Assembly: GCA_005787665.1 (NCBI GenBank)
Contig: SYAB01000269.1
Span: 1-5,144, forward strand
DNA: 5,144 nucleotides
Direction of reading: 5' to 3'
Source: Actinomycetota bacterium
GTDB lineage: Bacteria; Actinomycetota; Actinomycetes; Mycobacteriales; Mycobacteriaceae
In this document: piece by piece, positions 817 through 1,819 of the stretch
Position numbering within the stretch: position 1 is the stretch's first letter
Layout of the letters: every line of letters begins with the position of its first letter
Position numbers and translations under genes: made by a program
Notes under the pieces: generated by a model
The model's database searches: none
What the model was told of the DNA's origin: nothing
What the model saw: the letters and a program-made list of their open reading frames with translations, nothing else

Positions 817-832
817 TCGAACATATGATCGA
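817..832. promoter_or_regulatory. LexA (SOS) box
   Basis: TCGAAC-ATAT-GATCGA matches the mycobacterial LexA consensus TCGAAC-N4-GTTCGA at 11 of 12 defined positions, with the correct 4-nt spacer. It covers the putative -10 hexamer of the following gene, the expected arrangement for repression by promoter occlusion. Cleavage of LexA after DNA damage should release transcription of the gene starting at 836 and probably of the next one. Confidence 0.75.
824..829 (+). promoter_or_regulatory. -10 element TATGAT of a probable leaderless promoter
   Basis: TATGAT differs by one base from the SigA -10 consensus TATAAT and has the conserved T-A-T pattern. Six nucleotides separate it from the GTG at 836, so transcription would start at or very near the first base of that start codon. 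No convincing -35 is visible, which is common for mycobacterial promoters. Leaderless GTG/ATG-initiated mRNAs are frequent in mycobacteria, and no Shine-Dalgarno precedes this GTG. Confidence 0.55.
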
Positions 833-835
833 GTA

Positions 836-1144
836 GTGGGTGATCTGGCGGCGATCGGGTACCACGGGCAGCCGCTGCGCTCGCCGTTCCGGCCGGTGCG
901 TCCGCCGGTGCCGGTACTGATCGATCTGGGTGCGTTGTTCCCGCGCCGGCCGCACCGCAGCGGGCGCTACCACCCGCACGGGCTGCAGATGGATCAGGTG
1001 GTCACCGGGACCCTGAGTTGCTGGGGCCTGTGCGAGCAGGGCGAGTGGTGGGGCCTGGTCAGTTACCCGATCACCCACGGGGCCCACCGCCGGGCGGTCA
1101 CGCATTGGGTGCCGGCATGGACATTGCGCCCGGCCCCGCACTAG
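836..1144 (+). CDS. Small Trp-rich protein of unknown function, probably SOS-induced
   Basis: I do not recognise this 102-residue protein. It has a Pro/Arg-rich N-terminal third (GQPLRSPFRPVRPPVPVLI, residues 11-29) and a C-terminal part with five Trp (63, 71, 72, 91, 95) and a CWGLC pair of cysteines (62, 66). It has no signal peptide, no membrane segment and no HNH or other nuclease motif. GC-rich third codon positions throughout support real coding. An in-frame TTG at 797 gives a longer ORF, but it would place the LexA box and the -10 inside the coding sequence, so I prefer the GTG at 836, with leaderless initiation. The next gene follows after 9 nt, suggesting co-transcription. The LexA box immediately upstream suggests a role in the DNA-damage response, but this is inference from regulation only. 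Confidence 0.7.
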   Translation: MGDLAAIGYHGQPLRSPFRPVRPPVPVLIDLGALFPRRPHRSGRYHPHGLQMDQVVTGTLSCWGLCEQGEWWGLVSYPITHGAHRRAVTHWVPAWTLRPAPH

Positions 1145-1153
1145 GTTTCGGTC

Positions 1154-1819
1154 GTGACGAGTCTCGCTTCGGACCTGACCGAACTGGTGCCGCTGGCGAT
1201 GGTCATCTCGCTCTCGCCGTTGTCGATCATCCCCGGCATCCTGATGCTGCACACCCCGCGCCCACGCCCCACCAGCCTGGCGTTCCTCGCGGGCTGGACG
1301 ATCGGCATCGCCGCGATCACCGGAGCCTTCGTCATCGCCTCCGACCTGGCCGCCGGACTCGACAGGCAGTCGGCCGCGGCGCCGTACGTGCGGATCGCCA
1401 TCGGCATCGCGCTGATCGCCTTCGGCCTCTACCGCTGGCTGACCCGCAACCGCGCGCAGCACAGCCCCAAGTGGCTGACGTCGATGACCGCGGCTGGACC
1501 GGGGCGCGCGTTCGTCACCGCAATCGTGCTGTCGGTGGCCAACCTGAAGGTCTTCGCCATGTGCGCCGCGGCCGGCGCCGCTATCGGAACCGCGGCGCTG
1601 GGCCGCACCGGCGCCTGGCAGGCCGTCGCGGTGTTCACCGCACTGGCGGTCTCGTCGGTCGCACTGCCGGTACTGGCCTACCTCGTCGCCGGTGAGCGTC
1701 TCGACGAACCGCTGAACAGGCTCAAGCGCTGGATGGAGGACAACCACGGGGCGATGATCGCGGTCATCCTGGTGGCCATCGGCGCGGCCCTGCTCTACAA
1801 GGGCATCCACGCGCTCTGA
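1154..1819 (+). CDS. Six-helix membrane protein, Sap/GAP-type (SfLAP-like) transporter family
   Basis: This 221-residue integral membrane protein has about six hydrophobic helices, near residues 11-32, 42-64, 78-97, 118-137, 154-179 and 199-219. A basic loop (94-107, RWLTRNRAQH) lies between helices 3 and 4, and a charged amphipathic stretch (181-197) precedes the last helix. The N-terminal SPLSIIPGILMLHTPRPRP, the FLAGW motif (44-48) and the overall length resemble the GAP/Sap (sulfolipid-1-addressing protein) family. In mycobacteria, members of that family help export surface glycolipids or glycopeptidolipids; the fold is related to LysE-type exporters. The GTG start has only a weak upstream AGG, 8 nt away and overlapping the preceding stop codon, so translation is probably coupled to the gene before it. 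The cargo cannot be told from the sequence. Placement behind an SOS-controlled gene is unexpected for a lipid exporter. Confidence 0.8.
   Translation: MTSLASDLTELVPLAMVISLSPLSIIPGILMLHTPRPRPTSLAFLAGWTIGIAAITGAFVIASDLAAGLDRQSAAAPYVRIAIGIALIAFGLYRWLTRNRAQHSPKWLTSMTAAGPGRAFVTAIVLSVANLKVFAMCAAAGAAIGTAALGRTGAWQAVAVFTALAVSSVALPVLAYLVAGERLDEPLNRLKRWMEDNHGAMIAVILVAIGAALLYKGIHAL

Follow-up and report, generated by a model that had tools for sequence, protein, structure and literature searches.

A conserved LexA-like box at the predicted leaderless start of a gene for a family of small, putatively SH3-like proteins in Mycobacteriales

The mycobacterial LexA regulon is marked by the operator TCGAAC-N4-GTTCGA and, according to one report, LexA of Mycobacterium tuberculosis is itself translated from the codon at its own transcription start (PMC2897130). 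In this study we describe a gene that appears to carry a switch of the same kind. It lies at 836-1144 of the stretch formed by nucleotides 1 to 5,144 of contig SYAB01000269.1 (assembly GCA_005787665.1, Mycobacteriaceae), which is referred to as the window and whose closest relatives are mycobacterial. The box of this gene is like that of the regulon in both sequence and location, and the coincidence of translation start and transcription start that is reported for the SOS gene lexA is predicted for the window gene as well. The elements concerned are the following.

817..832, plus strand: LexA (SOS) box TCGAACATATGATCGA, 11 of the 12 specified bases of TCGAAC-N4-GTTCGA
824..829, plus strand: putative -10 hexamer TATGAT inside the operator, with T-12, A-11 and T-7 invariant in 71 aligned orthologues
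836, plus strand: predicted transcription start, the first base of the GTG (leaderless), at a conserved 6-nucleotide spacing from the -10 hexamer
836..1144, plus strand: gene for a Trp-rich 102-residue protein with a predicted SH3-like small beta-barrel fold, supported by its open reading frame, homologues, coding conservation and AlphaFold2

A sequence-only reading of this DNA had pointed to a near-consensus LexA box (11/12) that encloses TATGAT, with a GTG 6 nucleotides later, and we confirmed this arrangement at 817-838, where six bases (830-835) separate TATGAT from the GTG of 836-838. The box is the sole match at two or fewer mismatches in the window. As 46 of 200 shuffled windows also contained at least one such match, box 817-832 is not significant by itself; a LexA-like box taken alone is weak evidence, and the weight rests on comparison. 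The genomes of four relatives each hold 51-77 boxes with one mismatch or less, versus 11-22 for the reversed pattern. A text search of the literature for two of the box 16-mers found neither, and a 13-mer occurred in one unrelated Drosophila paper; full-text searches, whose scope excluded supplementary gene lists and most subscription papers, gave no paper that could be connected to the 836-1144 gene and no data on its expression or on LexA binding.

For the comparison GTDB species genomes were scanned, and 80 of the 158 relatives found were kept as orthologues. The box, written as TCGAAC[AG]TA[TC]GATCGA, is present in 77 of the 80 orthologous loci, and in 75 it stands exactly 3 nucleotides 5' of an in-frame ATG or GTG. 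The five loci that depart from this pattern do so in different ways: in L010 the box is displaced and a second TATGATCGA lies at the usual distance from the start, L063 has a box-to-start spacing of 4, the left half-site of L070 has an additional mismatch, and L031 and L047 have lost the left half. The loss in the last two, which are from two species, occurred at the same base, with ACGTATGATCGA kept and the contig end about 90 nucleotides away, a pattern that resembles an element inserted twice at the same nucleotide. In an alignment of 71 loci anchored on box and start, identity was 0.99-1.00 in the columns of the box except for one A/G position (0.62), and only 0.30-0.61 in the flanking columns from -60 to -22. 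The 6-nucleotide spacing from -10 to start is invariant in these 71 loci, as are the -10 bases listed above, and the sequence pattern used to recognize leaderless genes, TANNNT 6-7 nucleotides before ATG or GTG, is found in all of them and in the window (824-836).

Controls indicated that chance accounts for little of this. Among 16000 dinucleotide-shuffled 60-nucleotide upstream stretches 11 contained a box with one mismatch or less, and none of 350 other predicted genes in the orthologous loci had a box 0-5 nucleotides before its start. In four of five relatives' genomes the full pattern TCGAACNTATGNTCGANNNRTG occurs once, each time at the family gene; the fifth genome, which lacks it, is of the displaced L010 type. 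The upstream 100 nucleotides of 76 orthologues compared fall into at least 20 groups that share no 8-mers, and no more than 22 of 80 loci have clpB as their divergent neighbour, indicating that the box follows the gene and not the neighbourhood. By this comparison of sequences the box-start unit is among the most conserved features of the family, which goes beyond what the sequence-only reading had claimed. One orthologue (L098) keeps box and start and has an internal stop codon.

A profile search extended the family to at least 137 of 401 genomes of the GTDB family and at least 40 of 298 genomes of the order; the two genome samples overlap, and the tallies are lower bounds as 12 or 16 candidates were scored per genome. 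A homologue was counted as boxed when a site with two or fewer mismatches overlapped an in-frame start or lay within 10 nucleotides of it. At all distances together, a box touches the start in 135 of 162 homologue loci (close 40/42, intermediate 92/110, far 3/10), in 129 of the 135 with at most one mismatch, and the 27 unboxed loci comprise 9 whose box is off the in-frame start and 18 without a box at two or fewer mismatches. The sets of 80 and 162 loci are not independent: L087-L119 partly repeat genomes of L001-L080, L081-L085 repeat L002, L003, L010, L040 and L022, and L120-L123 were left out of the 162 as duplicates of L134, L143, L159 and L160. In the matched control, 5 of 656 other predicted genes of the loci were boxed at the start, and one of the five (L065) is a family gene that had escaped exclusion. 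That homologues keep the upstream box, a check put forward with the sequence-only reading, was thus borne out in 77/80 orthologues and 135/162 homologue loci versus 5/656 controls. In a few loci neighbours of the family gene are SOS-boxed at their starts as well (L103 1200-1514, L105 1122-1448, L109 1828-2127 and 2096-3157).

The boxed loci differ in how box and start are phased. In register A, to which 82 of the 135 belong, the start follows the box by 3 nucleotides; in register B (18) it follows by 10; in register C (8) by 2-3, with TA at box position 7; in register D (16) it lies inside the box and in register E (8) at box position 7, and the remaining 3 loci fall outside these registers and were not scored. 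A TANNNT stands 6-8 nucleotides before the start in 109 of the 135 boxed loci versus 7 of 6750 random positions, the distance being 6 nucleotides in 82/82 loci of A, 6-7 in 8/8 of C, 7-8 in 10/16 of D and 6 in 8/8 of E. Registers A and C are defined partly by the TA in the box, and D and E are the independent test. Register B, in which start codons are uncertain, fits the leaderless pattern poorly (1/18). Read most simply, these sequences place the transcription start at the initiation codon and allow the operator to overlap the -10 element from either side. We consider it highly likely that the transcript of the 836-1144 gene is leaderless.

The right half-site also varies with register. In A it is GATCGA, GGTCGA or GATCTA in 82/82 loci and never GTTCGA (0/82), the half-site found in 31/32 loci of C, D and E, indicating that the imperfection depends on the register. 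It might tune the -10 element, weaken the binding of LexA or keep the promoter from being symmetric; perhaps a perfect palindrome is avoided in A because, with TATGTT, a symmetric operator-promoter would be active in both directions or be repressed too strongly. It could be argued from the same imperfection, and from the four loci (L031, L047, L070 and L010) that keep the -10 half with the left half lost or displaced, that the conserved 16-mer serves as a promoter or binds some other regulator and is not a LexA operator. We regard this as very improbable, as registers C, D and E, whose -10 element is elsewhere, carry a perfect or near-perfect LexA palindrome and a bare promoter would not retain TCGAAC. 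PafBC control in particular was rejected: no PafBC motif (TGTCRGTG 5' of TANNNT at about 8 nucleotides, searched at spacings of 6-10) was found in 561-860 of the window. LexA control, a -10 element inside the operator and a leaderless GTG, as the sequence-only reading had it, are strongly supported by conservation, and LexA binding and damage induction of the 836-1144 gene can be predicted with near certainty.

Based on these data we propose that in the undamaged cell LexA bound at 817-832 would cover the -10 element, abut the start and block RNA polymerase. Upon DNA damage RecA filaments would trigger the self-cleavage of LexA, the housekeeping polymerase would then use TATGAT, transcription would start at or beside G836, and the leaderless mRNA would be translated from its first codon. 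The product would be made only in the damage response, where it may serve as a binding accessory whose partner is nucleic acid or a protein of replication, repair or transcription. This last step, the role of the product, we put at somewhat short of an even chance.

The open reading frame runs from GTG 836-838 to TAG 1142-1144 (102 codons), and the orthologues mismatch the window gene at 0.24, 0.12 and 0.42 of the three codon positions (7154 codons), indicating that it evolves as a coding sequence. The translation contains what the sequence-only reading had listed, 102 residues with CWGLC (residues 62-66) and five Trp in the C-terminal part (63, 71, 72, 91 and 95). The same reading found that the product matches nothing that it could name, which holds for the family databases, as there is no Pfam match at E<=1 and no NCBIfam match; the protein is nevertheless not an orphan, having at least 140 related protein clusters besides the family genomes counted above. 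Of the 140 related proteins 120 were listed, and named members of the family belong to Mycobacterium, Mycolicibacterium, Gordonia, Williamsia, Nocardia and Nakamurella. One metagenome protein of 172 residues (P0115) joins an FHA domain to the family and may be an assembly artefact.

From an alignment of 86 sequences AlphaFold2 predicted an SH3-like small barrel with a predicted local distance difference test score (pLDDT) of 91.7 and a predicted template modelling score (pTM) of 0.77, a model that supersedes a single-sequence structure prediction (pLDDT 69.9). To judge from the model, the closest folds would be SH3-like small barrels such as the Tudor domain of ERCC6-L2, chromo-barrels, the KOW domain of NusG and the C-terminal domain of retroviral integrase. 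Foldseek searches of PDB and BFVD with the model gave no match at E<=0.001, and two matches from a profile search of PDB sequences (E 0.033 and 0.88) were judged to be chance. The isoelectric point exceeds 9 in 67 of 86 family members. The sequence-only reading offered a checkpoint or repair role, which would be a guess. SulA, YneA and DivS are SOS division checkpoints, and by analogy the product might be a small protein that stops cells from dividing while DNA is damaged. It is small, as many known SOS checkpoints are, predicted to be under SOS control and encoded by a stand-alone gene in most contexts examined; yet no Pfam or NCBIfam family match links it to such proteins, no secretion signal or membrane segment is seen by eye and the model is a soluble barrel, so that a checkpoint role seems unlikely.

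The gene has the following neighbours in the window.

start 593, minus strand: clpB-like gene, divergent neighbour of the gene for the 102-residue protein
1154..1819, plus strand: Sap-family (PF11139) gene, possibly cotranscribed (Pfam E 1.8e-55)

On the plus strand the 836-1144 gene is followed by the Sap-family gene, a small open reading frame, an AMP-binding enzyme gene and a dehydrogenase E1 gene. The Sap-family gene begins 9 nucleotides after the stop codon, and in 47 of 80 orthologous loci such a gene lies on the same strand at most 74 nucleotides downstream, indicating that the transcript may not be monocistronic. No terminator-like site was found within 600-2200 of the window, and SOS read-through into the Sap membrane-protein gene is possible. 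The earlier description of a dedicated SOS gene thus stands as to predicted SOS control by the conserved box and is weakened by this neighbour, which is perhaps cotranscribed. One could go further and take the Sap-family membrane protein as the SOS-relevant product and the small gene as an operon leader. This seems improbable to us: a downstream Sap gene was not found in 24 of 80 loci, nearly all of which keep the box, other neighbours accompany the distant relatives examined, and the small protein is under coding constraint. Assigning a function from conserved neighbours (ClpB, Sap) was rejected as the neighbours vary between loci. A link to translesion polymerase was considered because on an S. 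venezuelae plasmid polymerase IV is reported to share an operon with a hypothetical gene bound by LexA (PMC9380542), and it was dropped, a DinB-like neighbour being seen by eye in 1 (L152) of 14 homologue loci listed. Just 5' of the operator the window holds a 27-nucleotide inverted repeat (724-793, 85% complementary, arms 16 nucleotides apart), and a motif resembling it, GAGCRGACGCAAA, lies near the family gene in some other loci, e.g. L001 and L030.

The family is also found on mobile elements. Relatives of the MFE type occur in 131 plasmid records (Rhodococcus 75, Gordonia 15, Prescottella 14) and, weakly (E 3e-3 to 0.9), in 11 Mycobacterium prophage records, and family relatives were located on M. 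abscessus prophages; the prophage relatives surfaced only with the queries L152 and L157 at a loose limit. A tblastn search of phages with the window protein and L147 gave nothing at E<=0.01 and E<=0.001. All seven copies checked, five from plasmids and two from prophages, are boxed at a start codon with no more than one mismatch; in one of the prophage copies the site is 81 nucleotides inside the annotated start. This is seen in gene 95 of M. abscessus prophage prophiT46-2 (L262), where a perfect box containing an ATG lies 81 nucleotides 3' of the annotated start; the true start is probably this inner ATG. In a contig from a viral collection (L164) a box lies 31 nucleotides before the matched stretch, and on a Nocardia plasmid (L257) a boxed member directly follows the TniB/TniQ transposition genes. 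The phage family phrog_37248, of unassigned function, is matched by 8 of 86 members (best E 7e-10) and not by the window protein. It is conceivable, if rather unlikely, that the family consists chiefly of cargo of mobile elements, serving the maintenance of plasmids or prophages, counter-defence or defence, and became domesticated on chromosomes, with SOS timing it to DNA uptake or prophage induction. The plasmid and prophage records, the copy beside TniB/TniQ, the phrog_37248 matches and the boxed mobile copies are in its favour, whereas the subgroup to which the window gene belongs was chromosomal in the loci examined, apart from one plasmid record, and is kept across many species, and PADLOC matched 2 of 86 members, each once and weakly (best E 0.0016), and the window protein not at all.

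Most of the chromosomal, plasmid and prophage relatives examined keep the same switch, and the gene appears to be a component of the damage response that has so far gone undescribed. Taken as a whole chain, with function understood loosely, a LexA-controlled leaderless SOS gene for an SH3-like barrel is on balance the probable account. More tentatively, we suggest an undescribed family of SOS effectors spread over Mycobacteriales, Nakamurella, plasmids and prophages, whose constants would be the barrel and a leaderless promoter fused to the LexA site, the operator having been re-phased at least four times with the -10-to-start distance kept at 6-8 nucleotides and the main register avoiding a perfect palindrome. 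Should induction by damage be confirmed, the few conserved SOS genes of mycobacteria would gain a widespread protein that has no name yet, and a knock-out would be a clean way to ask what it does. The varied phasing of operators around leaderless starts in this family forms a natural series in which the rules of LexA placement are directly testable, and the family would show plasmids and prophages retaining their own SOS-timed copies.

A like arrangement was seen in the relatives' genomes themselves. Two of them (G003 and G004) together contain ten exact SOS boxes, and the eight neighbouring proteins scanned were five DUF222 (13E12-type) proteins, two radical-SAM proteins and one without a match. 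In 5/5 of the DUF222 genes the start touches the box and a TANNNT stands 6-7 nucleotides before it, so that these LexA-controlled mycobacterial genes combine an operator overlapping the start with TANNNT in the same registers as the window family. The DUF222 protein is unrelated, being a few hundred residues long versus 102, and PF02720 (DUF222) has no match in the window protein (E<=1) or in 86 members (E<=0.1). The M. tuberculosis lexA gene differs in another way, as it encodes the regulator itself, unlike the window gene, and register A differs from the regulon consensus in the right half-site, which is not GTTCGA in any of its 82 loci. As the DUF222 genes and M. tuberculosis lexA share the arrangement, the regulatory layout is already known; by sequence comparison the family, for which neither Pfam nor NCBIfam holds a model, is the new part.
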